From a virus, in IMG/VR virus record IMGVR_UViG_3300046804_001899, positions 1 through 33,695 of that record: DNA of 33,695 nucleotides, one strand, 5' to 3'. The number at the start of each line of letters is the position of its first letter. The stretch's first letter is position 1. Made by a program: the position numbers and the translations under genes. The notes beneath the pieces were generated by a model that saw only the letters and a list, made by a program, of their open reading frames with translations, had not been told where the DNA came from and made no database searches. Of the stretch, positions 1 to 33,621 are shown one piece after another.

Positions 1-3000
1 CTGGAACATTAAGTGTTGGTGGTCAGACTACTGGATTAGATTTTGCTAGACGTGATACTGCAGCAAAAGCACAACAACTTGTTGATGCAATGCTTGCAGA
101 TGGTTCAGGAATTGAAAATGCATTAACTATTGTTAATGAAACACTTACTAGAATGGCAAATGATACACAAATTAGTATTGGATCATTTGTTAGAGAAATG
201 GAAGTAGTAACTAAAGAATTAACAGGATCTTTATTACCAAAGAGCATTTTAGTTGCTGGCGGTAGACCAGGGGAAAGAAAATTTAGTGCTGGTCAAACTA
301 ATGTTGGAACAATGGAAGAACAAGTTAAAGGTAATGCAACATTAGAAGAAGAATTAACAAGAGCAAGAGAATCTAGTAAAGTTGCTCAAGAAGCAATGCA
401 AAAGTACTATGAAGATATTGGTATTGACTTAACAAAAACAGATAAGAAAACACAGAATATTGTTAATGCTATTAAACAATCTGGAGAAGTTCATAGAGCA
501 CACATTATTGAAATGCAAGATAATGTTGATAAAATGTTTGACGAAGCCTGGGATCCAAATGTTTGGGTTGCTCAATCATCAACATTAAATCAAGTAAGTA
601 ATATTCTTGAATCTTCAAAAGATACAAGAAGTGCATATTTAAAAAATCTTAATGAAATTGAAATAGATGATAAAATTCGTGCAAGTATTACAGAAAAAAT
701 TAATAAAAATATTGCACTTACAGAAAGTGAACTTGTTGTTCAAAAACAAGTACTTGAACGTATGCTTGCATCTACAGAATCAATTGCTAAATTATCACCA
801 TCATTTAAAGCACAAGCAACTGGAGCAATTGCTGCTACAGAATATTTAATGCAAAATCCTGCTTTAGGTGTTGGAGTTGGATCAAGAACTCAAGAACAAA
901 GAACTACTGGTAGACAAGCAATTACTAATGCAAGATTTAGAGGACAACAATCATTTGCTCCAGTTACACAAGCAGCACAAGATGTTGTTGATGCAACAGT
1001 ATTAGAAACAGCACGTGCCGCTGGAACACAATCTCCTTCTAAGAGAACAATTCCAATTGGAGAAGATATTGCTCGTGGTCTTTCTGTAGGTATGATGAAT
1101 CAGGCTGATGATGTTGCTGCTGCAGCAAATGCAATTACACAAGACGCAATTACAGAAATGCGAGATACAGGATTGCTTGGTCCTGGTGGTCAACCACTTC
1201 GTGTTCCAGTTACACAACCATCAGCACCAGCGTCAACAATAGCACAAAATTCATCAATTAATAATGAAACTAAAAAGGCTATTGAAGATGAAATAAAAGC
1301 ACGTAAAACAATGCAAGGTCGTTTAGATTCAATGAATAAAGCATTGATGGGAGGAACTTTTGCATTAACAAGTCTAGCAGGGGCAGGATCATTTGCTGGA
1401 GGTGCATTGGGTGATTTATCTCAAGCGGTATTTAAATACTCTGGTCTTTTGTTTGGATTAATGTCAGTTACACAATTACTAACACAGGCAAAAATTGCAG
1501 AGTTAGTTGCTACAAGATTGGCAGTTGCTAAACAAGCAGCAGCATTTGCTTCATATGGTGCTGGAATAGCAGGAAGATCTGGAATTTTAGGAAGTATTGC
1601 AAGATTAGGTATTGGAATTACAAAATTCCTTGGTCCAATAGGAATAGCAACAACAGTTGCTACTGGATTATATGTTGGATTTAAATATTTACAAAAACGA
1701 AGTGAAGAAGCACGTAATGCTGTAATGGGACTTGCAGATGCTGCAAATCTTACAGCAAATAAATTAAAAACTTTGGGTGATTTCTTTGGAGTATTGCCAA
1801 CAAAGAATCCAATGATGCAGGCTGGTCCACAGTTAAGAATGACAACTACACAGCGTGGACAGGTTGAACAACTTAAAGCAAGTGATGCATTCCAAAATAC
1901 TTTTGGTAAAGATATATCAAATCTTAAAAAGGCAACAGCAAAAGAAGCAGAATTAGTATTTAAGAGTTTGGCAGTATCATTAACTGGTCAAGGATTTGCA
2001 CAAGAACAAATACAAAATATTATTGATGCTCTTCGTGAAGAAGCAGGTAAAACAGATGTTGTTATTGATGTTAAATCATTAAATCTTAAAACGCCAGCAG
2101 GTCAAGAACAATTTGCACAACTTGCTTCAGACATAACAAATCAACTTGCTGCTGCAGCCAAAAATGGCTATAAAGAAATTGAAGTATTAAAACAAGGCGT
2201 ATCTACAACTGGTCAATATTATCGTTATTATGCTAAAGAACTTGCTCCAACTGTAGCCTTACAAAAGGCTGCAAACGCTTCTGGTCAAGAATTATTCAAC
2301 ATGATGAGTGGTCTTGCTGGAGCATTAGATTCTGGTGCAATTAATGCTAAAGAATTTAATCAAGCATTTGATACTTTAGAAAATAAATTAAAACTTATTG
2401 AACAAACTAATCCATCAGCATCCGTATTAATGCTTAATGCTGCTATTAAGTTATTAAATCCAGAAACTCAAAAATTATTTACTGGATTAACTAATACCAA
2501 AGATGTAATGTTAATGATGAGAGCACAGGCTCTTGGATTAACAGCAATTCTTCCTGGATTAGCAGAAGCAATTAAAACAGTAAATGCTGGCTATACTGGT
2601 GATGCTACAGGTCTTGTACAAGCACAACAAAAACTTGAAGCATATAAAAAATTAATTGCACAAACAGCAAAAGATCAAGAAGATTTTATTAAGAAAACTC
2701 TTAAAACTGGAGATATTGGTGGTGGTACTGGAACAAAAAGTCCAACACAAGTAATAAAAGAAAAAACACAAGCATTAAATGATCAAGTTAAAGCATATAT
2801 AGAATTAAGAAATAAAGGATATGATGCTAAGACTGCTGCTGACTTGGCTGGAGATTCATTAATTGCTGCAGCAATAGCAGGTAGTAAAATTAAAGTTGGT
2901 AGTGCTGCATGGAAAGAATTAATAAATAATCTTAGAGTTGCTCAAACAGCAGCAGATGCAGTTGCAGCAAGAATATCTTTAGATCAACAAGCACAAAATA

Positions 3001-5138
3001 TTAAAACACAACTTGATGCTTATAATAAATTAGTAAAAGCAGGATTTGATGCACAACAAGCAGGAGAACTTGTTGGAGATGTTAATTTAGCAACATTAAT
3101 TTTAAATACCAAATCTGCTGGAATGACATTTGATGAATTAAAGAAAAAGATTTTAGAAGTACAAAATGGTTTAAATGCTGTTAAAAATCTTGGAAATCCA
3201 TTTGCTGCTATTGAAGCACAAACAGCGGTATTCAATAAACAGTATGACGCTATGATGGAAAAGTTTAGAATTCAAGAACAAAAAGCACGTAATCAGTTCC
3301 AACCAGGAATTGATGCTGCTCAAGCAGAAGTAGATAGAATCAAGGGTGTTATTGACGGTATCAATAAAGAAATTGATAAACTACAAACACAGATTCAAGA
3401 TAAACAGCGTGATATTGAAATTAATATTACACGAGTTGTTGAAAAATATCAAGCAGATATTACAAAACTTGAAGATAAGATTAAGCAACAATTTGATAAA
3501 CCATTACAGGTACTATCTGATGAATCAGATGTCTTAAACCATAATCTTGGATTAATTGATCATCAGGCTGAATCAATTAATGCTAAATATGATGCACAGG
3601 CTGAAGCATTACAGAAGGTTGCTGATATTAATGCTGAAGTTGCAGCACAAGAGCAAAAGCGTTTAGGATTGGCTTCTGCATTATCAAGTGGTGATATTGC
3701 TGCTGCCGCTGCTGCTGCACAAGAAATGAGAGCAGGTGCTGCTGCTAATGCTGCTGCTGGACAGGCTGGAAATCTAGAAGCCGCTAGAAAAGCAGAACTT
3801 AATGCTATTACTGTTGAAGGAATGACTAAGCAACAAATTGAACAAAGATTATATGCAATTGGTCAACAGCAATATGTTCTTGAACAAGGAAGAAAAGCGG
3901 TACAAAAAGAAATCGCAGATATTGAAGAATTTAAGATTGCTCCACTATTAGCAGATAAAGCAATAAAAGAAGCAGCAATTCGTGATTTAGAAGATCAGAT
4001 TTATCAAAAACAAAATGGTCAAACAAATAGTATTAGATCAAATAATATTCTTTTGGATGATGCTAATAATAAACTTACTATTGCACAACAAGCATTACAA
4101 GATGAATTAGATAAAATTGAAGCACAAAAGAAAAAATGGGAAGATGCTAAATTAAGAATTGATGAAGCAAAAAATTCTGTTGATACAATGAATATTTCAT
4201 TACAAACATCATTAGATCTTGTTAATCAAATTGTTGCTGCATGGGCTGCTGCACAGGCTGCTCAGGCTGCAGCAGCAGTAGGTGGTGGCGGTGGCGGAGG
4301 TGGAGGAGACGGTGGAGGAGATGGTACAGATAATACTGGCGATACAGGAAATACTAAGACCACAACTAAAACCACAACAACTAAAACTACAACTCCTACA
4401 ACTACTAAAACCACTACGCCTAAAACAACAACAACTAAACCAAGCACTTCTGTAACTATGACAGGTGGAAATAAATTACCACCAGGTGCTTCATTAGTTT
4501 TAGCAGCAAATAAAGCAAAATTAAATGCAGGTCTTAACACAGTTCCTTTTACTAGTTTGCCAAGTGGATTACAAGCATCAATTAAAAAAGATATTATTAA
4601 TAAAGGTGCAAATACTGTTCCTATTTCTAGTAGACCAAGTCTTGTAGTTCCTACAAAGAGTACAGGATCAAATACAGTTCCAAAATCTAGTATGCCATTT
4701 GGAGGACAGTCAGCCATTCCAAAGAAAAAAGCATTTGGTGGAATTATTCAAAAAATGGCTTCTGGAGGTTTTGTTCCTGGAATTGGATTAACTGATAAAG
4801 TTCCAGCACTATTGACACCTGGGGAATTTGTAATGAATCGTGGTGCAGCAAAATCATTTGCTCCATTTTTAAACTCATTAAATGACTCTAAATATCCATC
4901 AATGATTGGAAGAAATATGTCTTCTCCAATTTATAGTGTGGCAGCCCCTAATAATAACTATGCAATGCCTACAAATAATGTATCTACATCTGTTAATGAT
5001 AATTCAAGCACAGTGTATAATTATAGTGTTGGTATTACTGTTGGCGGTACTAATTCAAGCCCTGACAGTATTGCTAAGGCAGTATTAAATGAAATTAAAT
5101 ATATTGACTCACAAAGAATTAGGAACCAGAGAGCATAA
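1..5138 (+). CDS. Tail tape measure protein, 5'-partial
   Basis: This is the scaffold that sets tail length and is threaded inside the tail tube. The reading frame (first full codon at base 3) is open to the window edge, so the true start lies upstream; the ATG at 90 is internal. At least 1,711 residues are visible. Counting from the ATG at 90, hydrophobic and glycine-rich segments lie at about 430-560, long coiled-coil stretches at about 1050-1380, then a Gly run, a Thr/Lys-rich linker and a C-terminal segment with the motif GGFVPGIGLTDKVPALLTPG at about 1560-1580, which is typical of tape measure C-termini. At roughly 1.5 angstroms per residue (family knowledge) the tail would be at least 250 nm. 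The stop overlaps the next start by one base (TAATG). Function is near certain from size, composition and position; no muralytic domain is obvious in the visible part. Confidence 0.92.
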   Translation, partial: GTLSVGGQTTGLDFARRDTAAKAQQLVDAMLADGSGIENALTIVNETLTRMANDTQISIGSFVREMEVVTKELTGSLLPKSILVAGGRPGERKFSAGQTNVGTMEEQVKGNATLEEELTRARESSKVAQEAMQKYYEDIGIDLTKTDKKTQNIVNAIKQSGEVHRAHIIEMQDNVDKMFDEAWDPNVWVAQSSTLNQVSNILESSKDTRSAYLKNLNEIEIDDKIRASITEKINKNIALTESELVVQKQVLERMLASTESIAKLSPSFKAQATGAIAATEYLMQNPALGVGVGSRTQEQRTTGRQAITNARFRGQQSFAPVTQAAQDVVDATVLETARAAGTQSPSKRTIPIGEDIARGLSVGMMNQADDVAAAANAITQDAITEMRDTGLLGPGGQPLRVPVTQPSAPASTIAQNSSINNETKKAIEDEIKARKTMQGRLDSMNKALMGGTFALTSLAGAGSFAGGALGDLSQAVFKYSGLLFGLMSVTQLLTQAKIAELVATRLAVAKQAAAFASYGAGIAGRSGILGSIARLGIGITKFLGPIGIATTVATGLYVGFKYLQKRSEEARNAVMGLADAANLTANKLKTLGDFFGVLPTKNPMMQAGPQLRMTTTQRGQVEQLKASDAFQNTFGKDISNLKKATAKEAELVFKSLAVSLTGQGFAQEQIQNIIDALREEAGKTDVVIDVKSLNLKTPAGQEQFAQLASDITNQLAAAAKNGYKEIEVLKQGVSTTGQYYRYYAKELAPTVALQKAANASGQELFNMMSGLAGALDSGAINAKEFNQAFDTLENKLKLIEQTNPSASVLMLNAAIKLLNPETQKLFTGLTNTKDVMLMMRAQALGLTAILPGLAEAIKTVNAGYTGDATGLVQAQQKLEAYKKLIAQTAKDQEDFIKKTLKTGDIGGGTGTKSPTQVIKEKTQALNDQVKAYIELRNKGYDAKTAADLAGDSLIAAAIAGSKIKVGSAAWKELINNLRVAQTAADAVAARISLDQQAQNIKTQLDAYNKLVKAGFDAQQAGELVGDVNLATLILNTKSAGMTFDELKKKILEVQNGLNAVKNLGNPFAAIEAQTAVFNKQYDAMMEKFRIQEQKARNQFQPGIDAAQAEVDRIKGVIDGINKEIDKLQTQIQDKQRDIEINITRVVEKYQADITKLEDKIKQQFDKPLQVLSDESDVLNHNLGLIDHQAESINAKYDAQAEALQKVADINAEVAAQEQKRLGLASALSSGDIAAAAAAAQEMRAGAAANAAAGQAGNLEAARKAELNAITVEGMTKQQIEQRLYAIGQQQYVLEQGRKAVQKEIADIEEFKIAPLLADKAIKEAAIRDLEDQIYQKQNGQTNSIRSNNILLDDANNKLTIAQQALQDELDKIEAQKKKWEDAKLRIDEAKNSVDTMNISLQTSLDLVNQIVAAWAAAQAAQAAAAVGGGGGGGGGDGGGDGTDNTGDTGNTKTTTKTTTTKTTTPTTTKTTTPKTTTTKPSTSVTMTGGNKLPPGASLVLAANKAKLNAGLNTVPFTSLPSGLQASIKKDIINKGANTVPISSRPSLVVPTKSTGSNTVPKSSMPFGGQSAIPKKKAFGGIIQKMASGGFVPGIGLTDKVPALLTPGEFVMNRGAAKSFAPFLNSLNDSKYPSMIGRNMSSPIYSVAAPNNNYAMPTNNVSTSVNDNSSTVYNYSVGITVGGTNSSPDSIAKAVLNEIKYIDSQRIRNQRA
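2781..3230 (+). repeat. Tandem 75-residue repeat inside the tape measure gene
   Basis: Two adjacent segments of about 225 nt encode related protein units. The first contains DQVKAYIELRNKGYDAKTAA and the second the matching TQLDAYNKLVKAGFDAQQAG. Similarity is clear in the protein and weak in the DNA, so the duplication is old. Repeats in tape measures can change tail length, so this may record a past lengthening (inference). Unit borders are approximate. Confidence 0.6.
4350..4450 (+). repeat. Thr/Lys-rich low-complexity linker in the tape measure gene
   Basis: A run of ACA/ACT/ACC and AAA codons encodes a chain of TTK and TTTK units directly after a polyglycine stretch (about 4279-4320). It separates the coiled-coil body from the conserved C-terminal segment and is probably a flexible linker. 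The repeated triplets could expand or contract by slippage. Confidence 0.7.
4536..4703 (+). repeat. Three NTVPxSSxP-type peptide repeats in the tape measure C-terminus
   Basis: The motif Asn-Thr-Val-Pro followed by a Ser/Thr-Ser pair, one residue and Pro occurs with its Asn codon at 4536, 4611 and 4671 (spacing 75 and 60 nt). The copies read NTVPFTSLP, NTVPISSRP and NTVPKSSMP. Their role is unknown; they sit just before the conserved tape measure tip and might bind another tail protein. Confidence 0.6.
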
Positions 5139-24826: not shown

Positions 24827-25352
24827 AATAGATATAGTAAAACATTTAGATCAAGTTAATCGTGTTGTTGAAGAATATTTAAAAGGCAATGATCCAACAC
24901 GGATTGCTAAAACTCTTGATTTACCACGCACAAGAGTTGTCGAATTATTAAATGAATGGAAAGTTATGGCATCTGCAAATGATGCTATTCGTGCTCGTGC
25001 AAAAGAAGCATTAGCATCTGCTGATGCACATTACAGTAAACTTATTACACAAGCATATGAAGTTATTGAAGATGCAAATACAACTGCTAATCTTCCTGCA
25101 AAAACAACTGCAATTAAATTAGTAATGGATCTTGAATCAAGACGAATTGATATGTTGCAAAAGGCTGGACTATTAGAAAATAAAGAATTAGCAGAAGAAA
25201 TGATTGCAATTGAAAAACGACAAGAAGTTCTTATGGGTATTCTTCGTGATATTGCTTCTTCTCATCCAGAAGTTCGTGATTTAATCATGCAAAGATTATC
25301 AACAATTGCAAAAGACGGGGAAGTGATTACAGTTGTCCACAATGTTCAATGA
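24816..25352 (+). CDS. terS: Terminase small subunit, probable
   Basis: A 178-residue protein with an N-terminal helix-turn-helix (EYLKGNDPTRIAKTLDLPRT then RVVELLNEW, about residues 18-47), a helical central region (about 60-130) and an acidic-hydrophobic C-terminal helix (ERR- and EVRDLIMQRL-type). Terminase small subunits bind packaging sites through such an HTH and oligomerise by a central coiled helix. It directly precedes and overlaps the large terminase gene by 20 bases, which is the main support. Specific packaging sequence is not visible. Confidence 0.7.
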   Translation: MTNEIDIVKHLDQVNRVVEEYLKGNDPTRIAKTLDLPRTRVVELLNEWKVMASANDAIRARAKEALASADAHYSKLITQAYEVIEDANTTANLPAKTTAIKLVMDLESRRIDMLQKAGLLENKELAEEMIAIEKRQEVLMGILRDIASSHPEVRDLIMQRLSTIAKDGEVITVVHNVQ

Positions 25353-27114
25353 TTTTCTTGAAGCACTTCAAGATAATCCATTTGAAGAAAATCCTGTAGA
25401 TGTAAAAACATTTGTTGAGTCTGCAGATTATTTAGGGCAGCCACCACTATCTGCAATTCAGTATGACATTGTAGAGGCTATGAGTCAAATTTTTTATAAA
25501 AAAGACTTACAAGTATTAATGGGAACAGTAGAGGGTTCAAACTATTATGACAAATACACTAAAAATGAAATCATCTTACAATTGGGTAAAGGTAGTGGCA
25601 AAGACTTTGTTTCCACTGTCGCTTGTGCTTATGTTGTGTATAAGTTACTATGTCTTAAAGATCCTGCCAGATATTTTGGAAAACCAAGCGGAGACGCTAT
25701 AGATATTATTAATATTGCTATTAACGCACAACAGGCTAAGAATGTTTTCTTTAAAGGATTTAAAACTAAGATTGAAAAATCACCATGGTTTGCTGGTAAG
25801 TATGAAGCAAAAGTAGATAGTATTGGTTTTGATAAATCTATTACTGTTTATTCTGGACATTCAGAACGTGAATCACATGAGGGTTTAAATTTACTTATGG
25901 CAGTTCTTGATGAAATTTCTGGATTTTCTACAGAGGTAGGAACAGGAAATGATCAAGGAAAAACTGCTGATAATTTATATAAAGCATTTCGTGGAACTAT
26001 AGATTCTCGTTTTCCAGATCTTGGCAAGATAGTTCTTCTTTCATTCCCACGATATCAGGGTGACTTTATTTCAAAACGGTATGATGAAGTAATCATGGAA
26101 AAAGATGTAATAGAACGTAGACATAAGTTTATTATTAATGAAGAATTACCAGAAGATCCAGATAATGAATTTGAAATTGTTTGGGAAGAAGATCATATTA
26201 AGTCTTATAAATATCCTAGAATGTTTGCCCTAAAAAGACCTACATGGGAAGTAAATCCCACTAGAAAAATTGATGATTTTAAAATTGCATTTTTAACTGA
26301 CATGGGTGATGCAATGATGCGTTTTCTATGTACCCCAACATATTCATCAGATGCGTTTTTTAAACAAAAAGATAAATTAGAAAAATGTATGACACTTAGA
26401 AATCCACTGGATAATCACAGGAGATTTGATGTTGGTTTTAAGCCAGATCCAGAAAAAGTTTATTATGTGCATGCTGACCTTGCACAAAAACATGATAAAT
26501 GTGCTGTAGCAATTGCACATGTTGAAAGATGGGTCAATATTCAGGTAATCAAAGATTATGAGCAAGTTGCACCAATTGTTGTTGTAGATGCAGTAGCATG
26601 GTGGGAGCCAAAAGTTGAGGGTCCTGTCAATTTATCTGAAGTTAAAAATTGGATTATTAATCTTCGTAGAGAAGGTTTTAATATTGGTATGGTTACATTT
26701 GACCGCTGGCAGTCCTTTGATATTCAGCAAGAATTAAAAGCGGTAGGAATGAGAACTGATACTGTTTCTGTTGCTAAAAAACATTATGAAGATTTAGCAA
26801 TGATGATATATGAAGAAAGAATTGCAATGCCTAATATTCCTTTGCTTCTTGAAGAAATGAGTGAGTTGAAGATTATGAAAAATAATCGTGTAGATCACCC
26901 ACGTAAAAAATCTAAGGACTTAGCAGATGCTGTCTGTGGGGCAGTATTTGGGGCAATATCGCATACAAGTAGAGACTCTAATCTAGAGATTGATGTTCAT
27001 ACTTGGAGTTCTGCTACTCGACTTGCAGAAAAGCAAAGGTCTATGGTAGAATTAGATACTAAGGAGATGCCTGACGATGTTAGAGATTTCCTGACAGAAT
27101 ATAAACTAATATAA
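25333..27114 (+). CDS. terL: Terminase large subunit
   Basis: A 593-residue motor and nuclease that packages DNA. TTG 25333 is preferred over ATG 25342 because GGGGAAG (25317-25323) then sits 9 bases ahead. The ATPase has Walker A GKGSGKD near residues 84-91 and Walker B LMAVLDEIS near 187-195 with the catalytic acid following. The RNase-H-like nuclease carries acidic residues in VHADLAQKHD near 380, MVTFDRWQSFD near 455 and SKDLADAVCG near 530. No portal, protease or capsid gene follows directly; instead come envelope and lysis genes. The ends mechanism (headful or cos) cannot be told. Confidence 0.93.
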   Translation: MSTMFNDFLEALQDNPFEENPVDVKTFVESADYLGQPPLSAIQYDIVEAMSQIFYKKDLQVLMGTVEGSNYYDKYTKNEIILQLGKGSGKDFVSTVACAYVVYKLLCLKDPARYFGKPSGDAIDIINIAINAQQAKNVFFKGFKTKIEKSPWFAGKYEAKVDSIGFDKSITVYSGHSERESHEGLNLLMAVLDEISGFSTEVGTGNDQGKTADNLYKAFRGTIDSRFPDLGKIVLLSFPRYQGDFISKRYDEVIMEKDVIERRHKFIINEELPEDPDNEFEIVWEEDHIKSYKYPRMFALKRPTWEVNPTRKIDDFKIAFLTDMGDAMMRFLCTPTYSSDAFFKQKDKLEKCMTLRNPLDNHRRFDVGFKPDPEKVYYVHADLAQKHDKCAVAIAHVERWVNIQVIKDYEQVAPIVVVDAVAWWEPKVEGPVNLSEVKNWIINLRREGFNIGMVTFDRWQSFDIQQELKAVGMRTDTVSVAKKHYEDLAMMIYEERIAMPNIPLLLEEMSELKIMKNNRVDHPRKKSKDLADAVCGAVFGAISHTSRDSNLEIDVHTWSSATRLAEKQRSMVELDTKEMPDDVRDFLTEYKLI

Positions 27115-27136: not shown

Positions 27137-28204
27137 ATGAATTCATTTAAGAAGATTGCTCTTGGTGTGGTTGCAGCCATGACTTTGGGCACAATTGTAG
27201 CAACACCTGCAAGTGCTGATACCGTTACTGTTGCAGTCACAACATCTGTGGCTGGATCTGGTACTGCTCTTGCTCCGTATACTGTAAACGTACCTTATGA
27301 CAATGTTGTGTCTGATACATCAACAGCATCTGAGGCTCTTACATTTACAGCAACAGTAACTGCTGGAACACCAGTAACATTTACTGCTACTGGAAACGCA
27401 AAGATTGTCTCTGCTGTTAACGCTGCAGTTACATCAGCATCTGGAGTTACTTCATTAACAGTTACTCCTTCAGGAACAACTGCTGTTGTTTATGTATTTA
27501 CAACAAGTACTTCTGCATCTGCTATTACAGCAACTGTAACTGGTGCAGCAACAACAATGTACCTAAAGGGTATTGCTGGTCCTGCATATAATGTATCACT
27601 TTCACTTCCAGCATCTGGAAATATTTCTGGTACATCAACTGCAACAGCAACTGTTACAGATATTTTTGGTAATGGTGTAGCAACTGCTCCAACATTTACC
27701 GCAATTAATGCAACTGCTGGTTCAGCAACTGCTGATGCACTTGTAGTTGGTAAGTACACATCAACAATTACACTTCCTGCAACTGCTGGAAATGTTGCTG
27801 TTGGTGCTTCTATTACCGCTCCAACTGCAGTTCCAACACTTGCTGTTGCAAAGGTTGCAGATTCTGCTCTTCTAGCAGTTTCAGATCTTTCTTCTGCTCT
27901 TGCTGCTGCTAATGCTGCACTTGCTGCAGAAAAGGCTGCTTCTGCTGCTGCTGCTTCAAAGGCTGCAACAGATGCACTTGCTGCAAAGGCTATTGCTGAT
28001 AAGGCTCTAGCAGATGCAGTTGCTGCAGAAAAGGCTGCTGGTGCAAAGGCACTTGCAGATTCTGCTGCTGCACATGCTGCTGAACTTGCAAAGGTAAAGG
28101 CTGATAATGATGCTGCAATTACTGCAATCAAAAAGGCTTTCAATGCACTTGCTGCTAAGTGGAATGCAAAGAATCCAAAGGCAAAGGTTGCCACACTTAA
28201 GTAA
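27137..28204 (+). CDS. Secreted Ala/Thr-rich surface-type protein with coiled-coil C-terminus
   Basis: A 355-residue protein with a clear Sec signal peptide (MNSFKKIALGVVAAMTLGTI, cleavage after the ASA near residue 27). Residues about 30-240 are Thr/Ala/Val-rich beta repeats resembling Ig-like surface domains (TATVTDIFGNGVATAPTF near 172-189). Residues about 245-335 are an Ala/Lys/Asp/Glu-rich coiled coil, ending in a basic Trp-containing tail (KWNAKNPKAKVATLK). Around 20 of its 21 or so lysine codons are AAG, unlike the AAA-rich neighbours, which suggests strong codon optimisation or transfer from the host. It stands alone: own AAGGAG site and a terminator immediately after. Likely exported to the host surface; function unknown. 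It could be a superinfection-exclusion or envelope-coating protein. Confidence 0.8.
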   Translation: MNSFKKIALGVVAAMTLGTIVATPASADTVTVAVTTSVAGSGTALAPYTVNVPYDNVVSDTSTASEALTFTATVTAGTPVTFTATGNAKIVSAVNAAVTSASGVTSLTVTPSGTTAVVYVFTTSTSASAITATVTGAATTMYLKGIAGPAYNVSLSLPASGNISGTSTATATVTDIFGNGVATAPTFTAINATAGSATADALVVGKYTSTITLPATAGNVAVGASITAPTAVPTLAVAKVADSALLAVSDLSSALAAANAALAAEKAASAAAASKAATDALAAKAIADKALADAVAAEKAAGAKALADSAAAHAAELAKVKADNDAAITAIKKAFNALAAKWNAKNPKAKVATLK

Positions 28205-28220
28205 TTAAAACTTAAACATT

Positions 28221-28251
28221 AAGGGCGTAGATTAATTTCTACGCCTTTTTT
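28221..28251 (+). terminator. Rho-independent terminator
   Basis: A perfect 8-bp stem, GGCGTAGA at 28224-28231 and TCTACGCC at 28238-28245, with a six-base loop and a T-run following (28246-28251). It is 20 bases after the stop of the secreted protein gene and ends its transcript before the next promoter. Confidence 0.92.
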
Positions 28252-28262
28252 GTTTAATAAAA

Positions 28263-28271
28263 TGATATAAT
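28263..28271 (+). promoter_or_regulatory. Extended -10 promoter ahead of 28308
   Basis: TGATATAAT at 28263-28271, right after the terminator; no good -35 is visible. Start near 28278 would leave about 30 bases of leader containing AGGAGAG (28294-28300). Confidence 0.65.
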
Positions 28272-28307
28272 ATGTTTAATTAAACAATTAAATAGGAGAG
28301 TCCCCAA

Positions 28308-29789
28308 ATAAATAAAATCCTACGCATAATTGCAGTGGTTGGGATTATATTTGTTGGTATGTTTGGATTACCAAATAATGCCTACGCTACCTGTGTTAAT
28401 TATCTTGAATCACAAACAATAGCAGCAGCCTATGAGGGTGATGAAGTTCCAACGGTACACACAATGGATACCTGCGGTGGAGATGATACTTCATATCAAA
28501 TTCCAATAGCAACAACAATTACTTTTGATGGTGTTGAATATTCTAATATTTATGCTACAACAAACTCAGTGATTACATTTGGTCAGCCAGATAATACATA
28601 CTGGACTTATCCATCTACCCCATCAATTTCACTATATTCTATGGACTGGGTTTCTGGATGGTATAACGCACCTGATACTTTAAATATATCTTATTCTGAA
28701 GGTGGTTTTCAATTAAGTCTTCAGGTTATACCTTTTGGTCAATGGAATGCACCAGAGGCAAGTAATATTAATATTCTTGTTGCTATTACAAATACTGGTG
28801 GTATTTCAGTAGCATATAGTTATCAAGGACCAGAGTATCCTAATTTAAGAACTGGAGTAAGACTTCATGATGGTTCTATTGTATCTTTAGAAGAATGGGG
28901 GGCAACGAGAGTTCAACCTGGGTCTTCTACACCTACTTTACAGGCAGATCCAATTCCATCTACTCCTACACCTACACCATTGACACCAGAACAACAGCAA
29001 ACACAAAATACACAAAATATTTCTACAGCAAATGATGTTGCTACAATTAATCAATTAATAATTGCTGCTGCAAATGCTACAAATAGTGATGTTGTTGAAC
29101 CTACTCCAGAACCAACTCCAACTCCAGAAGAAACAACAGATCCAGATGTTATTATTGTTGAGCCAGAAATAATTACTCCTGAAGATCCGAGATTTCCAGA
29201 TAATATTGACGAACAAAATCAACCAAGCGACTCCACTCCAAGTCCAACGCCAGAAACAACTCCTGAGCCAACACCTGATCCTGAGCCTTCTTCAGAGCCT
29301 TCATCTCAGCCAGAGGATATAAATCAAGACCAAACTGATCAACCATCTGTAGATCCTGTTCAAAATCCTGATAAAAATCCATTTATTAATAGTAGCATAT
29401 CTGATTTTATTTCTGAAGCAGAACTTAAAAAATTAAATTCTGTTATTAGTGTAAATGATGCTAAATTATTAGGAAAATTAGTTGATTCTGATCCTAATAT
29501 TAAACAGGCTGTTATTGAGTTTGCAGCAAGATCAGAAGCAAATGCAGATGCTCCAATGCCATATACCGTAGCAGATGCTATTACTGAAGTTCAGGCAGAA
29601 AAATTATTAGAAAATCCAGTTGGTGCTCTTACTTCTGTATTTTCTGATATAGATTTAAAAACTCTTACAAGTCCTACAGAATGGGGTAAGGATATGACAG
29701 ATGATCAAAGAGAAAAAATACAAGAAATTGTAGTTCCAGTCATTATTGCTTCTAATATAGTGGCTGCATCTATGACTAGGAGGAAATAA
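28308..29789 (+). CDS. Secreted Pro-rich protein with C-terminal membrane anchor, apparent ATA start
   Basis: I extend the gene to ATA 28308, giving 493 residues. AGGAGAG (28294-28300) lies 7 bases ahead, and translation from there yields a full signal peptide, INKILRIIAVVGIIFVGMFG (the first residue would be Met), with cleavage after AYA near 27. The nearest standard start, GTG 28335, lacks the basic n-region and is 34 bases from the ribosome site. The mature protein has a beta-rich domain of about 190 residues with Cys and Trp, a long Pro/Thr/Glu linker (about 220-340), a helical domain, and a C-terminal hydrophobic segment VVPVIIASNIVAASM followed by TRRK. This looks like surface attachment through a C-terminal membrane anchor. 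Function unknown; adhesion-like or cell-surface masking is possible. Confidence 0.75.
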   Translation: MNKILRIIAVVGIIFVGMFGLPNNAYATCVNYLESQTIAAAYEGDEVPTVHTMDTCGGDDTSYQIPIATTITFDGVEYSNIYATTNSVITFGQPDNTYWTYPSTPSISLYSMDWVSGWYNAPDTLNISYSEGGFQLSLQVIPFGQWNAPEASNINILVAITNTGGISVAYSYQGPEYPNLRTGVRLHDGSIVSLEEWGATRVQPGSSTPTLQADPIPSTPTPTPLTPEQQQTQNTQNISTANDVATINQLIIAAANATNSDVVEPTPEPTPTPEETTDPDVIIVEPEIITPEDPRFPDNIDEQNQPSDSTPSPTPETTPEPTPDPEPSSEPSSQPEDINQDQTDQPSVDPVQNPDKNPFINSSISDFISEAELKKLNSVISVNDAKLLGKLVDSDPNIKQAVIEFAARSEANADAPMPYTVADAITEVQAEKLLENPVGALTSVFSDIDLKTLTSPTEWGKDMTDDQREKIQEIVVPVIIASNIVAASMTRRK

Positions 29790-29983
29790 TGAAAATAGCG
29801 AAAGCAATACTTAACTATGCTTGGGAAGTTGTAAAAGAGAGCATTGCTCAAATATTTACTCTTCTTGGTTTTTTTATTGCATGGTTAACAATGACTGGTT
29901 CAGCACAAAAAATTACAGGTATTTTTACTGTAATTGCTACAGTTATTTGGCTTGCTACCATTCCATTGCGAAAAGAGGAATAA
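29789..29983 (+). CDS. Small membrane protein, holin candidate
   Basis: A 64-residue protein starting on a TAATG overlap with the secreted anchor protein. It has an amphipathic N-terminal helix, two likely membrane segments (about residues 22-38 and 42-58, IFTLLGFFIAWLTM and TGIFTVIATVIWLATI) and a charged end (RKEE). Size and two-segment topology fit a class II holin. It is close to the endolysin at 30858, as holins often are, but two further small membrane proteins are also candidates. Confidence 0.6.
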   Translation: MKIAKAILNYAWEVVKESIAQIFTLLGFFIAWLTMTGSAQKITGIFTVIATVIWLATIPLRKEE

Positions 29984-29986
29984 TTT

Positions 29987-30208
29987 ATGAAAGATAAAGT
30001 TATTTTTACATTATCAGTAATGGTAGGTCTTGCTATTATTACTGCTATTGTTGGAGATTATGTAACTGCCGCTCTTGAAACTCAAAAAACAGGCGAACCA
30101 GTAGAAGTGTCAGCAGAAGTAATGACGCTTGTTCAAACAGCCCTTGGAGGTCTTATAGGCATTATTGGTGGATATTTTGGGGCTAAAGGTTCAAAAGACA
30201 AAGACTAA
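29987..30208 (+). CDS. Small membrane protein, second holin candidate
   Basis: A 73-residue protein with an N-terminal membrane segment (VIFTLSVMVGLAIITAIVGD at about 4-23), a polar acidic loop and a second Gly-rich membrane segment (TALGGLIGIIGGYFGAKG at about 51-68) ending in a lysine-rich tail. Two segments, small size and proximity to the endolysin fit a holin or antiholin. It lies 3 bases after the previous gene and ends before an internal promoter. Confidence 0.6.
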   Translation: MKDKVIFTLSVMVGLAIITAIVGDYVTAALETQKTGEPVEVSAEVMTLVQTALGGLIGIIGGYFGAKGSKDKD

Positions 30209-30213
30209 TAGTT

Positions 30214-30222
30214 TGATATAAT
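30214..30222 (+). promoter_or_regulatory. Extended -10 promoter for a leaderless lipoprotein mRNA
   Basis: TGATATAAT at 30214-30222; no clear -35. Its last T is 8 bases before the ATG at 30230, so transcription would begin at or one base before the start codon. The gene would therefore be translated from a leaderless transcript. Confidence 0.65.
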
Positions 30223-30229
30223 GGTGGGT

Positions 30230-30439
30230 ATGAAAAGAATATTCGGATTATCTCTATTAGCATTATTGCTAACAGGTTGTGGATATGATGGAGGCTATCG
30301 CTATGCATGCCAAGATCCAGCAAACTGGGATAATGTTGAATGTAATCCACCAATTTGTGAACCTTCTGGTACGTGTTCAAAAGATTTAGTTGGTCAAACA
30401 GTGTGGGATGAATATCAAAATAAAAAAGGGGGTAAATAA
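30230..30439 (+). CDS. Small lipoprotein
   Basis: ATG 30230 is chosen over 30221 because the latter lies inside the -10 box. The 69-residue product has an N-terminal signal MKRIFGLSLLALLLTGCG with the lipobox LLTGC, so the Cys near residue 17 would be lipidated. The mature part holds four further Cys (YACQDPANWDNVECNPPICE region and TCSKD) that could make two disulfides. It stops on a TAATG overlap with the next gene. Phages use such proteins for spanin or superinfection functions; here, in an envelope cluster, the exact role is unknown. Confidence 0.72.
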   Translation: MKRIFGLSLLALLLTGCGYDGGYRYACQDPANWDNVECNPPICEPSGTCSKDLVGQTVWDEYQNKKGGK

Positions 30440-30858
30440 TGGCTAAAGAAAGATTAACGCCACAAGACCTTGATGCTAGATTAAAATTTATTCTAGGAAT
30501 AACTTTGGGGTCAATTTTGTTTTTTACAGCAATAGGAATCTTATATGGACTCTTATTTGTTACACAACCAGTAGGAGCACAATCTGAAAATGACAAAATG
30601 TTTTTCAACGTGCTTGGATCTGTAGCAACTTTTATTACAGGAACACTTGCAGGTCTATTAATTGGACAAAGTGGTGCAAAAGATATTATGAAAGCACAAC
30701 TTGACAATAAAGAAATGGATGCTAAAAATACACAAGCAGATAAGAAACTTGAATCAGAAATTAGAACTGCAGAAATGGAAACTCGTGCTCGTTTAGAGGC
30801 AAAGAAAGATGATGAAATGCCAGACGATCATGATGAAGATACAGATTGGGATAAATAA
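30439..30858 (+). CDS. Membrane protein with coiled-coil tail, holin-like
   Basis: A 139-residue protein with two hydrophobic segments (about residues 17-42, FILGITLGSILFFTAIGILY, and about 60-78, GSVATFITGTLAGLLIG) and then a long charged coiled coil (about 80-130). This N-terminal pattern with a following CHAP endolysin is common among phage holin-type proteins. Overlaps of one base with both neighbours (TAATG) show tight coupling to the endolysin gene. It may also act as an accessory to the two small membrane proteins upstream. Confidence 0.6.
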   Translation: MAKERLTPQDLDARLKFILGITLGSILFFTAIGILYGLLFVTQPVGAQSENDKMFFNVLGSVATFITGTLAGLLIGQSGAKDIMKAQLDNKEMDAKNTQADKKLESEIRTAEMETRARLEAKKDDEMPDDHDEDTDWDK

Positions 30859-31487
30859 TGGCTGAAGATAATTTTCCAGTACCACCAGTAGATAAACATC
30901 AACCAGGAACTGTTGGTCGTTTACTTGAAGTTGCTAAATCACAAATTGGATATATTGAAGGTCCAAAAGATAATGAAACTAAGTATGGTAAAAAGTATGG
31001 AACAAACTTTCAGCCATGGTGTGGAGCATATGTTAATTGGTGTGGTGAAGAGGCTGGAGTAAAAATTCCAAGAACAGTATATACACCTGCTGGCGCAGCA
31101 GCATTTAAAAAAGCAGATGCTTGGATTGATGCACAAGTTGCAGATCCAGAACCAGGAGATATTGCATATTTTAATTTTCCAGGAGTAACTGGAATTTGCC
31201 ACGTTGGTATTGTTGCAGTAGATAATGAAGATGGTACTGTTTGGTGCTATGAAGGAAATACTACTGGAGATGGTAAAAAAGGTAGCCAAAGAAATGGTGG
31301 AGAAGCAGCAAAAAAACTTCGTGCATATAAGAAAAATAAAGCAGGAGTAATGGTTTCTATTGTTGGATTTGGTCGTCCAAAATATAAGGGTGCTGGAGCA
31401 GTAACATCTAATAATACTGCTAAAGATACTAAAAAAACATCTAAAGATGATAAAACTTGTCCAACTTGCGGTCAAACAGTAAAATAA
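30858..31487 (+). CDS. CHAP-domain endolysin with C-terminal zinc knuckle
   Basis: A 209-residue cell wall hydrolase. The CHAP catalytic Cys55 lies in PWCGAYVNWC, His115 in GICHVGIVA, and the polar helper in CYEGN near 130-134. Such enzymes cleave peptidoglycan peptide or amide bonds. After a Lys/Thr/Asn linker (about 178-197) the protein ends in CPTCG, half of a zinc ribbon and probably part of the wall-binding or dimerising end. No export signal is present, so a holin is needed, and three candidates stand directly upstream. Confidence 0.88.
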   Translation: MAEDNFPVPPVDKHQPGTVGRLLEVAKSQIGYIEGPKDNETKYGKKYGTNFQPWCGAYVNWCGEEAGVKIPRTVYTPAGAAAFKKADAWIDAQVADPEPGDIAYFNFPGVTGICHVGIVAVDNEDGTVWCYEGNTTGDGKKGSQRNGGEAAKKLRAYKKNKAGVMVSIVGFGRPKYKGAGAVTSNNTAKDTKKTSKDDKTCPTCGQTVK

Positions 31488-31494
31488 AACATTC

Positions 31495-31523
31495 TTGACT
31501 TATAAAAATATTCTTGATATACT
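31495..31523 (+). promoter_or_regulatory. Promoter for the Ntn hydrolase gene
   Basis: TTGACT at 31495-31500, a 17-base spacer, then TATACT at 31518-31523 preceded by TG (31515-31516). Start near 31530 gives a 22-base leader holding AAGGGG (31541-31546) before ATG 31552. All three sigma70 elements are present. Confidence 0.75.
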
Positions 31524-31551
31524 ATAAGAACAAGAAAGTTAAGGGGTTGGC

Positions 31552-32070
31552 ATGACTTGTATTGCTGGAATAATGAAAGATGGAAAAGTTTATCTTGCAG
31601 GTGAACGTGGTGCATCTGAGGGTAATTATATAATTTCTATTGATAAACCTAAAATATGGAAAACAGGTAGGTATATTTTTGGATATGCTGGTACTTTTGA
31701 TGCTCAGATTATTCAATATAACTTTAATCCACCTGAACCTGAAGGTAATTTAGATAAATTTATGCATAGTAAATTTTTAAAATCACTTAAAGCATTTTAT
31801 AATGAATGGGATATTGGTGGAAAAGAATCTGAAATATCTCTTCTTATTGGTGTTAAAGGTAAATTATATGAACATGAATCAGAAGGTTTAACAATGATTT
31901 CCTATGACAGGGATTATCTTGCCATAGGCTCAGGGGCAGACTACGCATTAGGATCATTACATGCCACCCGCACTCATAAAGATCCTAAGCGTAGGCTTGC
32001 TCTTGCTTTAGACGCAGCATGTGTATTTAGTACATCCTGTATTGGTCCAGTTGACTTTTTAAGTGCTTAA
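31552..32070 (+). CDS. Proteasome-beta/HslV-like N-terminal nucleophile hydrolase
   Basis: A 172-residue Ntn-fold peptidase candidate. The protein begins MTCIAGI; removal of Met would expose Thr as the nucleophile, as in HslV, with no propeptide. In Thr1 numbering the residue at 17 is Glu (proteasomes have Asp17), Lys33 is exactly in place (DKPKIW), Ser is at 126 in AIGSGADYALG (near the usual Ser129), and an Asp lies near 167. AGERGAS, IFGYAGT and GSGADYALGSLHA match conserved strand positions in the family. No ATPase partner is encoded in this window, so it may act alone, with a host ATPase, or as an autolytic or maturation peptidase. It has its own complete promoter. Confidence 0.75.
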   Translation: MTCIAGIMKDGKVYLAGERGASEGNYIISIDKPKIWKTGRYIFGYAGTFDAQIIQYNFNPPEPEGNLDKFMHSKFLKSLKAFYNEWDIGGKESEISLLIGVKGKLYEHESEGLTMISYDRDYLAIGSGADYALGSLHATRTHKDPKRRLALALDAACVFSTSCIGPVDFLSA

Positions 32071-32079
32071 GGATATAAT
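32051..32079 (+). promoter_or_regulatory. Strong promoter giving a leaderless mRNA
   Basis: TTGACT at 32051-32056, a 17-base spacer, then TATAAT at 32074-32079. The normal start position, 7 bases after the -10, is 32086, the A of an ATG. The transcript should start exactly at the start codon. Confidence 0.8.
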
Positions 32080-32085
32080 ATTATT

Positions 32086-32262
32086 ATGAGTAAAAAAATG
32101 GATTTTGATACATGGTTACAACTTGGTGTTGATGAGGGATGGGTTAGTGAACCATTTTGCTTCACACATGATGGTGATCGTTATATGACAGAAGAAGAAG
32201 AAAATGAATGGCAAGAAGGTGGAGATCCATGTTGCCATGTTGTAAAGTTTTTAGATAACTAA
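32086..32262 (+). CDS. Small Cys/His-containing acidic protein, leaderless
   Basis: A 58-residue protein found by reading downstream of the strong promoter at 32051. It is acidic, with WLQLGVDEGWVSEPFC early, a HDGDRYMTEEEENEW helix, and a GGDPCCHVVKF end; C25, C49, C50 and H28/H51 could bind a metal. Short proteins with GW...C..HDG and GGDPC patterns recur in phages, but no function is established. There is no ribosome site, as expected for a leaderless gene. Eleven bases separate its stop from the protease start. Confidence 0.72.
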   Translation: MSKKMDFDTWLQLGVDEGWVSEPFCFTHDGDRYMTEEEENEWQEGGDPCCHVVKFLDN

Positions 32263-32272
32263 AAGGGGAATA

Positions 32273-33112
32273 ATGAAAAAAATAGTGGGGTTATTAGTAG
32301 TATTATTTACTGCAGGATTTTTACCATCAGTAAGTGCTGTAGAAAAACCAGCAATTGCTATTATTGATACAGCAATTGATACATCAGCAGTTAATGTTAT
32401 ACATGAAGTTTGTTTAATGGAAGAAAAGCGTTGTCCAAATAAACAGGCTTATATGGAGGGTAGAGGAGCAGCAACTTTGCCACAAGATCAACTATATAAA
32501 AATATGTTCGATCATGGAACTCAAATGTCTGCTGTAGCAAAGTATGTCAATCCTGACGTAAATATTGTATTTATTAGAATGATTCCTATGACTAATACTG
32601 GAACTTTAGGAATTTATACAGATAATACAATAAATGAAGCCTTAAAATGGGTAATTGCAAACAAGACAAAGTTTAATATTGTTGCAACATCTATTTCATT
32701 TGGAAGTCATAATTTTAAAAAGGCTGCCCCAGGATATTGTTCAATTACTAAAATAGGACAAGATTTACGTAATAATATTATTACCTTGCAAAAAATGGGT
32801 GTAGGAACAATGTTTGCTGCTGGCAATAGTTATGATAAAACTCGTGTTGATTATCCTGCTTGCATCAATGAAGCAATTGCAGTTGGGTCAATTGGAGAGT
32901 ATGGAAATGTAGAACTATATAGTAATAGTGGTGCTGAATTAGATTTTTATGCTCTTGGTACATATGATGTTTTAGGTAGGAGAAGTATGGGTACTTCACC
33001 TGCTACCGCTGCATTAGCAGCATTTTGGGCAAAGAATTATCAAGGTTCTTATCAGGCTACCTATGATTATTTAAAGTCTGTATCTAAGGATCTTATAGTA
33101 ACAGTAAAGTAA
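32273..33112 (+). CDS. Secreted subtilisin-like serine protease
   Basis: A 279-residue S8-type protease. The Sec signal (MKKIVGLLVVLFTAGFLPSV then SA, cleavage near 22) is followed directly by the catalytic domain. The triad is D32 (AIIDTAID), H81 (DHGTQM) and S242 (GTSPATAALAA), and the oxyanion Asn is N185 (FAAGNS). There is no I9-type propeptide, so folding may not need one. Two Cys near 47 and 54 could form a disulfide. AAAAGGGG lies 4 bases ahead of the ATG. It likely acts outside the cytoplasm, on host surface proteins or during release. Secreted subtilases are unusual as phage genes. Confidence 0.9.
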   Translation: MKKIVGLLVVLFTAGFLPSVSAVEKPAIAIIDTAIDTSAVNVIHEVCLMEEKRCPNKQAYMEGRGAATLPQDQLYKNMFDHGTQMSAVAKYVNPDVNIVFIRMIPMTNTGTLGIYTDNTINEALKWVIANKTKFNIVATSISFGSHNFKKAAPGYCSITKIGQDLRNNIITLQKMGVGTMFAAGNSYDKTRVDYPACINEAIAVGSIGEYGNVELYSNSGAELDFYALGTYDVLGRRSMGTSPATAALAAFWAKNYQGSYQATYDYLKSVSKDLIVTVK

Positions 33113-33121
33113 TGATATAAT
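33113..33121 (+). promoter_or_regulatory. Extended -10 promoter for hsp20
   Basis: TGATATAAT at 33113-33121, immediately after the protease stop; the -35 (TTATAG at 33093-33098) is weak. Start near 33128 places the following hairpin at the very 5' end of the mRNA. Confidence 0.65.
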
Positions 33122-33123
33122 AG

Positions 33124-33154
33124 GTAGTGCACCTGCCAAATGGGGGTGCACTAC
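33124..33154 (+). promoter_or_regulatory. Perfect 10-bp hairpin in the hsp20 leader
   Basis: GTAGTGCACC (33124-33133) and GGTGCACTAC (33145-33154) are exact inverted repeats around an 11-base loop. No T-run follows, so it is not a terminator. It starts at or next to the predicted mRNA 5' end and leaves the AAAAGGAG ribosome site (33165-33172) free. It may stabilise the mRNA, act as a temperature-sensing element, or be a protein-binding site in the DNA. Confidence 0.75.
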
Positions 33155-33177
33155 TTACTCGCTTAAAAGGAGAAAAA

Positions 33178-33621
33178 ATGGTAACAACATATACTTCAGG
33201 ATCTTGGAATAATATTTTCAATGATCCATTTTTTATTGGCTTCAACAGAGAGTTGACACGCCTAAATAATGTACATAGTTCAGCAACACGTCAATCTTAT
33301 CCACCTTATGATTTAATTAAAGTAGATGAAGATACATATAAACTTTCAATAGCAGTTGCTGGTTTTACGAAAGATGATGTAAAAGTAACTGTCGAAGATA
33401 GCACTTTAATTATTAAAGGTGAAGTCTCAACTGAAACTGAAGGTGAAGCAATTCATAAAGGTATTGCAGCACGTAAATTTACCCGCACATTTGCTCTTAG
33501 TGAATACATGGAAGTAACTGGAGCAGAAATGAAAGATGGTATGCTTCACATTGACATTGATCGCATTATTCCAGAGGAAAAGAAACCAAAGGAAATTGCA
33601 ATTAAGGTTGCTAAAAAGTAA
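33178..33621 (+). CDS. hsp20: Hsp20 / alpha-crystallin small heat shock protein
   Basis: A 147-residue chaperone. ATG 33178 has AAAAGGAG 5 bases ahead; an in-frame GTG at 33127 at the predicted mRNA start would add 17 residues and is an alternative. The alpha-crystallin domain runs from about residue 38 to 135: YKLSIAVAGFTKDDVKVTVE, then GIAARKFTRTFAL typical of IbpA-type class A proteins, then GMLHIDIDRIIPEEKKPKEI. The N-terminus has aromatic residues (WNNIFNDPFFIGF) used for oligomerisation and substrate binding. Hsp20 genes are known from other tailed phages and may aid capsid or protein folding. The C-terminal KEIAIKV carries the conserved I-x-I/V-type motif. Confidence 0.93.
   Translation: MVTTYTSGSWNNIFNDPFFIGFNRELTRLNNVHSSATRQSYPPYDLIKVDEDTYKLSIAVAGFTKDDVKVTVEDSTLIIKGEVSTETEGEAIHKGIAARKFTRTFALSEYMEVTGAEMKDGMLHIDIDRIIPEEKKPKEIAIKVAKK

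Follow-up and report, generated by a model that had tools for sequence, protein, structure and literature searches.

Proposed neighbouring modules downstream of the terminase gene of a probable actinophage: a predicted exported surface pair, one gene of which has a never-ATG start, a lysis set, and an hsp20 gene behind a ROSE-like leader

The virus record IMGVR_UViG_3300046804_001899 of IMG/VR, whose 33,695 bases are referred to here as the window, carries a block of eleven genes downstream of, and anchored by, its gene for the terminase large subunit (terL, 25333–27114, identified by PHROG terminase matches). All features of the block lie on the plus strand. They comprise two genes for predicted exported proteins, labelled here secA and secB; the small membrane protein genes m64 and m73; a small lipoprotein; a further membrane protein, m139; a CHAP endolysin; an N-terminal nucleophile (Ntn) hydrolase; the small protein o58; a secreted subtilase (S8); and, behind a structured leader RNA, the gene for the small heat-shock protein Hsp20. 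The initial annotation had regarded this block as an envelope and proteolysis island that suggested a coordinated programme. The genes it named are all present according to Pfam, PHROG and a scan for signal peptides and transmembrane (TM) segments, with corrected starts for secB and hsp20. The findings on the start of secB and on the leader of hsp20 are stronger than the original observation of the block.

Relatives of the window phage were picked from IMG/VR in three ways, namely by the terminase large subunit (TerL), by S8, and by Ntn, the last being blind to S8; most of the loci are fragments from uncultured phages, and many of them are near kin. More than 100 of these relatives share the order terL-secA-secB-m64-(lipoprotein-m139-endolysin)-Ntn-o58-(slot)-hsp20. 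In the TerL-chosen set, secA is found in 64/64 loci that extend 1.2 kb or more downstream, secB in 24/24, m64 in 15/15, Ntn in 13/13 and o58 in 12/12, with S8 in just 6/11; in the Ntn-chosen set, o58 comes next in 46 of 48 distinct loci. The co-occurrence in related phages that the initial annotation had proposed to examine is therefore borne out, with the genes together and in fixed order in many relatives, and the independent scattering that would have spoken against it was not seen. When tested genes were compared with those of five relatives, the ratio of nonsynonymous to synonymous substitution rates (dN/dS) was below 1 in every comparison that allowed an estimate of dS. Signal peptides and membrane segments, scored with a simple and crude script, occur in 7 of the 11 block genes versus 1 of 26 upstream genes (hypergeometric p ~2e-4, secB being read from its ATA start in both figures). 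All four export signals of the window lie inside the block and none in the 26 upstream genes, so the clustering of four predicted exported proteins holds: secA, secB and S8 have signal peptides, and the lipoprotein has the lipobox LTGC.

The window TerL shows 53% identity across its length to those of Stanwilliamsviridae phages of Streptomyces, Genie2 and NootNoot among them, and WhiB is carried by 11/12 longer relatives; on these grounds the window phage and its relatives very probably have actinobacterial hosts. The low G+C content of the window, taken together with the literature on freshwater Nanopelagicales phages (PMC10202952), suggests that these hosts live in freshwater.

The first gene of the block, secA (27137–28204), is predicted to encode a secreted protein with a signal peptide (cleavage near A27), immunoglobulin (Ig)-like beta domains and a helix of about 95 residues, and is followed on its 3' side by an intrinsic terminator (28221–28248) consisting of an 11-pair stem and a T run. 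The signal peptide is conserved and the mature part far more divergent (mean pairwise identity 58% versus 34%). Against five relatives, secA has a dN of 0.26–0.52 and a dS of 0.58–1.08, compared with a dN of 0.04–0.06 for TerL (between the window and L084, 0.26 for secA and 0.04 for TerL), which makes it the least constrained and fastest evolving of the genes tested. The structural model (predicted local distance difference test score, pLDDT, 79) contains Ig-like strands and a long helix, and a Foldseek search with it returned invasin (1cwv, E 3e-7), the S-layer protein SbsC and intimin, at low template modelling scores (TM-scores). The model thus supports an Ig-like fold class that resembles invasin and S-layer proteins.

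The second gene, secB (28308–29789), lies downstream of an extended -10 motif, TGATATAAT (28264–28271). Its predicted product has a signal peptide, a globular head, a proline/threonine (P/T)-rich stalk and a C-terminal membrane anchor ending in TRRK. Across relatives the head sits on a stalk that is either P/T-rich or coiled, and basic residues come after the hydrophobic segment at the C-terminus. The head can be swapped for a PA14 domain while the anchor is retained, and PA14 scores above the Pfam cut-off in three relatives (L015, L020 and L078). Both secA and secB thus have the appearance of proteins of the cell surface.

The start of secB is unusual. GTG at 28335 was rejected because it yields a truncated signal peptide; the in-frame ATA at 28308 restores the complete one and has the Shine-Dalgarno (SD) sequence AGGAG 9 nt upstream. 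When the best SD-anchored start was surveyed with ATG and GTG among the candidate codons, 57 distinct relatives gave TTG 29 times, ATA 14, ATT 11, ATC 3 and ATG 0. A held-out set of 26, of which 22 were usable after four miscalled entries (L209, L217, L224 and L227) were dropped, gave ATT 13, TTG 8 and ATA 1. Pooled over 79 usable distinct relatives, the starts are TTG 37, ATT 24, ATA 15 and ATC 3, with no ATG at the aligned position; the exception to be mentioned is L015, which has an in-frame ATG five codons upstream. The same procedure returned ATG in 95/95 cases for secA and in 68/68 for hsp20. In L007, L146 and L153 a stop codon immediately precedes the ATA or ATT, so that a longer protein is ruled out there. 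Spacing to the SD sequence differs by codon: ATA and ATT mostly stand 5–9 nt behind a strong one, and TTG mostly 9–12 nt. It is important to note that the automatic start-codon caller misreads genes with a weak SD sequence (those of the lipoprotein, Ntn and o58), and for this reason the start of secB was judged from alignment of the SD sequence, the conserved n-region and direct reading rather than from the caller. A conserved non-ATG start behind a good SD sequence is one feature of starts controlled by translation initiation factor 3 (IF3), and secB has it. Conserved weak initiation of secB is thus likely, and it may be limited by IF3. A phage-encoded IF3 was considered as the regulator, but none was found in 12 longer relatives.

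At the far end of the block, hsp20 (33178–33621; Pfam HSP20 5.9e-20 and PHROG 432 4.2e-40, both scored on the longer open reading frame from 33127) starts at ATG 33178 behind AAGGAG; GTG at 33127, also considered, falls inside a hairpin of the leader. This leader (33122–33177; folding z-score -4.7) forms hairpin I at about 33122–33156 and hairpin II at 33158–33172, in which CUCGCU (33158–33163) pairs with AGGAG (33168–33172). Across 37 distinct relatives, 98.9% of pair cells are kept in hairpin I and compensatory changes occur in 5/5 consensus pairs, and the observed number of double changes was reached by none of 500 shuffles. Two to four hairpins of conserved structure characterize ROSE-like thermometers, and the leader has two. 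A covariance model built on it finds one strong match per genome in 17/18 longer relatives, and hsp20 lies directly 3' of the leader in the window and the collected loci, as it does in G017 and G018, two genomes in which hsp20 occupies a different position. In hairpin II the sequence UCGCU, which pairs with the SD sequence, is invariant and corresponds to the U(U/C)GCU motif (UYGCU) that defines ROSE-like thermometers. UYGCU is present in 29/29 distinct 28-nt ends of hsp20 leaders versus 0/425 for seven other genes.

The same layout is found beyond the relatives, in cyanophages, a Pelagibacter phage, a methylophage and jumbo phages. Among unrelated phages, UYGCU stands before the SD sequence of hsp20 in 14/17 (12 of the 15 whose start is annotated, together with L252 and L266, which were read by eye), against a shuffling expectation of about 6% per leader. 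Of the three without it, L261 and L265 carry near variants, and the annotated start of L260 may be wrong. An alignment of these leaders with MAFFT misplaced the helices and so yielded no consensus fold, and single-sequence folds were used instead; in each of the 18 leaders with the motif that were folded, the window and its relatives accounting for four, UYGCU is predicted to pair with the SD sequence. In the energy model, with the window hairpin taken alone, the SD sequence is unpaired to 11% at 5 °C, 24% at 42 °C and 54% at 60 °C. The Rfam gathering score for ROSE is not reached (window ROSE_3 15.8 of 43 bits; the methylophage leader, at 34.1 bits, is also below), and an Rfam scan of the whole window gave no match above the gathering cut-off. 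For that reason the leader is not classed as a member of an Rfam ROSE family, and the term ROSE-like refers to its motif and layout. Campylobacter phage A11a (L253, MG065691.1, an unverified record) has an Hsp20 gene with a full ROSE_2 match of enterobacterial type (100 bits); it was excluded, as the record is probably contaminated with host DNA. Beside the hsp20 region of the relative L248, two tRNA genes lie on the minus strand (1216–1363); the window has none.

Between the surface genes and Ntn lie the genes of the lysis set. The first, m64 (29789–29983), encodes a membrane protein with two TM segments and is the holin candidate. It is followed by m73 (29987–30208), a small membrane protein absent from most relatives and with a weak PHROG holin match (E 0.27); by the lipoprotein (30221–30439), whose true start may be ATG 30230, making the mRNA leaderless; by m139 (30439–30858), again with two TM segments (PHROG 25359, E 3.8e-13); and by the CHAP endolysin (30858–31487; Pfam CHAP 1.4e-8, PHROG endolysin 1.2e-26). 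Matches of the small membrane proteins to HisKA_4TM and ABC2 fell below the cut-offs and were taken as chance. The lipoprotein is gained and lost together with m139 across relatives: over the whole m64-to-Ntn interval of 44 distinct loci of the Ntn set, lipoprotein, m139 and endolysin are jointly present in 6 and jointly absent in 38. In other relatives (e.g., L071 and L134) the endolysin may sit after hsp20, with the lipoprotein and m139 staying in place. Judged by this gene content, the lipoprotein and m139 appear to belong to a lysis set that is exchangeable. A -10-like TATAAT was also seen very near the starts of the lipoprotein and o58 (30215–30230 and 32072–32086), and both mRNAs may be leaderless.

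The Ntn hydrolase (31552–32070; Pfam Proteasome 9.5e-6, PHROG HslV 2.4e-20) is HslV-like. M1-T2 is invariant in 11 sequences and K34 is present in all full-length ones, so that the predicted residues T2 and K34 match the processed N-terminal Thr and the Lys33 of the HslV/Ntn class. No partner ATPase or unfoldase was recognised among the window genes scanned against PHROGs, and none was sought elsewhere in the phage or host. The adjoining o58 (32086–32262) encodes a small protein of fixed position, and beyond it lies a variable slot that holds S8 in the window (32273–33112; Pfam Peptidase_S8 E 1.6e-14). In S8, D32, H81 and S242 and the oxyanion residue N185 are invariant in 11 aligned sequences. 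S8 has no match in 50,697 INPHARED phage records, nor does any PDB sequence match it at E 0.001; secA and secB likewise have no INPHARED relatives at the cut-offs used. A host origin of S8 and secA was considered and dropped, scans of host contigs, weak because of their few patterns, having returned no relative. S8 is present in 14 of the 27 Ntn-set loci with a complete o58-hsp20 interval, and several others are empty or carry unrelated genes; as far as these loci go, the subtilase is an optional tenant of the slot.

The slot between Ntn/o58 and hsp20 appears as an insertion hot spot in L032, L037, L043, L055, L057 and L065, with DUF6065, 2OG-Fe(II) oxygenase and JmjC-like genes and, by eye, a methylase-like gene as cargo. 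In L032 it holds an exported protein without a Pfam match in which a metallopeptidase-like motif, HEYTH...WYMEGSA, was seen by eye. A second exported family occurs in the slot (L015:10502-11116, L037:9617-10264 and L055:19084-19716), with a Cys-rich N-terminus, the motif VVLQVxAxP and no Pfam family. Elsewhere in the window, positions 90–5138, upstream of the tail genes, encode a protein of 1,682 residues for which PHROG gave no match at E 0.01.

Whether these genes form one machine can now be considered. Besides the motif before secB, extended -10-like motifs occur at 30215, 31516, 32072 (without TG) and 33114, and GATATAMT has nine matches in the window, all on the plus strand, against 4.4 expected over both strands; the block is thus divided by at least five promoter-like -10 motifs and one terminator. 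The coordinated programme of the initial annotation, in which export, proteolysis and a chaperone jointly rework the envelope and protein pool of the host and sustain it, is partly supported. The fixed neighbourhood across relatives and the clustered export signals speak for it, but synteny within one phage lineage is equally expected from plain vertical inheritance and is no proof of a shared programme. Against it stand the optional subtilase, the lysis parts that swap as a set, the predicted internal promoters, and the fact that Ntn and Hsp20, both common in unrelated phages, each occur there without the other. In the regions inspected, they were near neither each other nor a subtilase, and four Ntn regions of other phages had no Hsp20, lysis genes or subtilase nearby, with the exception of one Salmonella phage, in which a putative cell wall hydrolase lies some 5 kb away. 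We therefore favour modules, since S8 is optional, the lysis parts assort and the -10 motifs and terminator split the block, and consider a single programme quite improbable.

Our proposal, which we hold at about an even chance, is that the block, in a group of freshwater actinophages akin to Stanwilliamsviridae, consists of neighbouring modules rather than one machine: a secA/secB surface pair directed against superinfection, a lysis set, and a group of Ntn, o58, slot and Hsp20. In the first module, as predicted from sequence and models, the secA product would be secreted in quantity, as suggested by its ATG, its good ribosome-binding site and its own terminator, and would coat the outside of the infected cell. 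The secB product would be membrane-anchored and stalked, with a swappable binding head, and would be kept scarce by its poor start codon. Their joint role would most likely be to cover or occupy the surface of the cell, keeping other phages or sister virions off. The second module would comprise the small membrane proteins, the lipoprotein and the CHAP endolysin, and the third the Ntn hydrolase, o58, the exported-cargo slot (here with the subtilase) and Hsp20. The subtilase would be an accessory exported protease, probably trimming proteins outside the membrane. The ROSE-like hairpin, its structure backed by covariation and motif, would hold off translation of Hsp20 and should open on warming. 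As neighbours, the modules may share their purpose in part. A bolder version is offered tentatively: a secreted Ig-like coat and a stalked, anchored protein dosed by an IF3-sensitive start may let freshwater actinophages take over the host exterior and, separately, tailed phages of very different hosts may share a ROSE-type thermometer before Hsp20, so that the chaperone is made on warming.

Other roles for the surface pair need to be weighed. The adhesin-like anatomy of head, stalk and anchor in secB, its PA14 heads and the invasin/intimin-like fold of secA would also suit aggregation or attachment proteins, which would make infected cells adhere to one another, to particles or to new hosts and thereby help progeny to reach hosts; PA14 domains are often carbohydrate-binding. 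The poor start codon, however, suggests few copies of secB, and free-living planktonic hosts are not known to aggregate, so we regard this role as unlikely. Flanked by the terminase and the lysis set, secA and secB could instead be virion or lysis accessories, such as a fibre that is released or a lysis helper that binds the wall, with signal peptides serving late release. We give this idea little credence: full Sec signals and a membrane anchor are ill-suited to a component of the virion, secB comes with a weak start and a promoter-like motif of its own, and secA and secB remain when the lysis parts are exchanged. Several observations weigh against our own proposal. The secA gene was not found adjoining terL in one wider clade (L209 and L217), the secB head gave a weak model (pLDDT 64) and no fold match, and partial host scans, weak for their few patterns, found no relative of secA or S8. 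The fold match of secA, moreover, proves no function, because Ig-like folds are generic and the TM-scores low.

Little is known about the phages that infect the most abundant bacteria of freshwater. If the proposal is right, a core and fast-diversifying phage-made surface pair would give infected cells a phage-defined face to the water, and a ROSE-like thermometer on phage Hsp20 genes would explain the timing of the chaperone and tie the outcome of infection to water temperature. The never-ATG start of secB offers a clear and testable example of a phage that sets the dose of a protein through translation. Translation brakes of the kind proposed for secB and hsp20 appear to be undescribed in phages. 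Lambda cIII is a known phage thermosensor; no publication joining an RNA thermometer with phage Hsp20 was found among the open-licence papers covered, and the novelty is provisional for that reason.

Known systems provide counterparts for several parts. Phage superinfection-exclusion surface proteins include T5 Llp and TP-J34 Ltp, both small lipoproteins. Like them, the secA and secB products are predicted to be phage proteins that the infected cell makes and exports, but they differ in kind: secA would be a large secreted protein with an Ig-like fold and secB a stalked one held by an anchor, and exclusion is their proposed role. With the Peptidase S8 family, the window S8 shares the catalytic Asp, His and Ser and the oxyanion Asn, and it differs in being phage-borne with a signal peptide. 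HslV-like peptidases (PHROG 1040) are found in 160 phage records and share with the window Ntn the equivalents of the N-terminal Thr and Lys33; the window enzyme differs in adjoining o58 and the lysis set. IF3-limited weak starts are described for Staphylococcus aureus infC and ccpN (AUA) and cvfC1 (AUU) (PMC13009471), and for Streptomyces sigR (GTC; PMC5472188). As in those genes, a rare codon stands behind a good SD sequence in secB and is kept in relatives, and low expression is expected; in contrast, secB is a phage gene for an exported surface protein, several poor codons (TTG, ATA, ATT and ATC) interchange, and the role of IF3 is a possible one. The short ROSE-like thermometers of Pseudomonas ibpA have a two-hairpin layout of 61–62 nt (PMC3669281). 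Unlike these, the hsp20 leader occurs in phages, including actinophages, scores below the Rfam ROSE threshold, and has a melting that is predicted by the energy model. It shares with them two hairpins within about 60 nt, a stable hairpin I, an SD sequence paired with U(U/C)GCU in the 3' hairpin, an unpaired AUG, and a small heat-shock protein gene.

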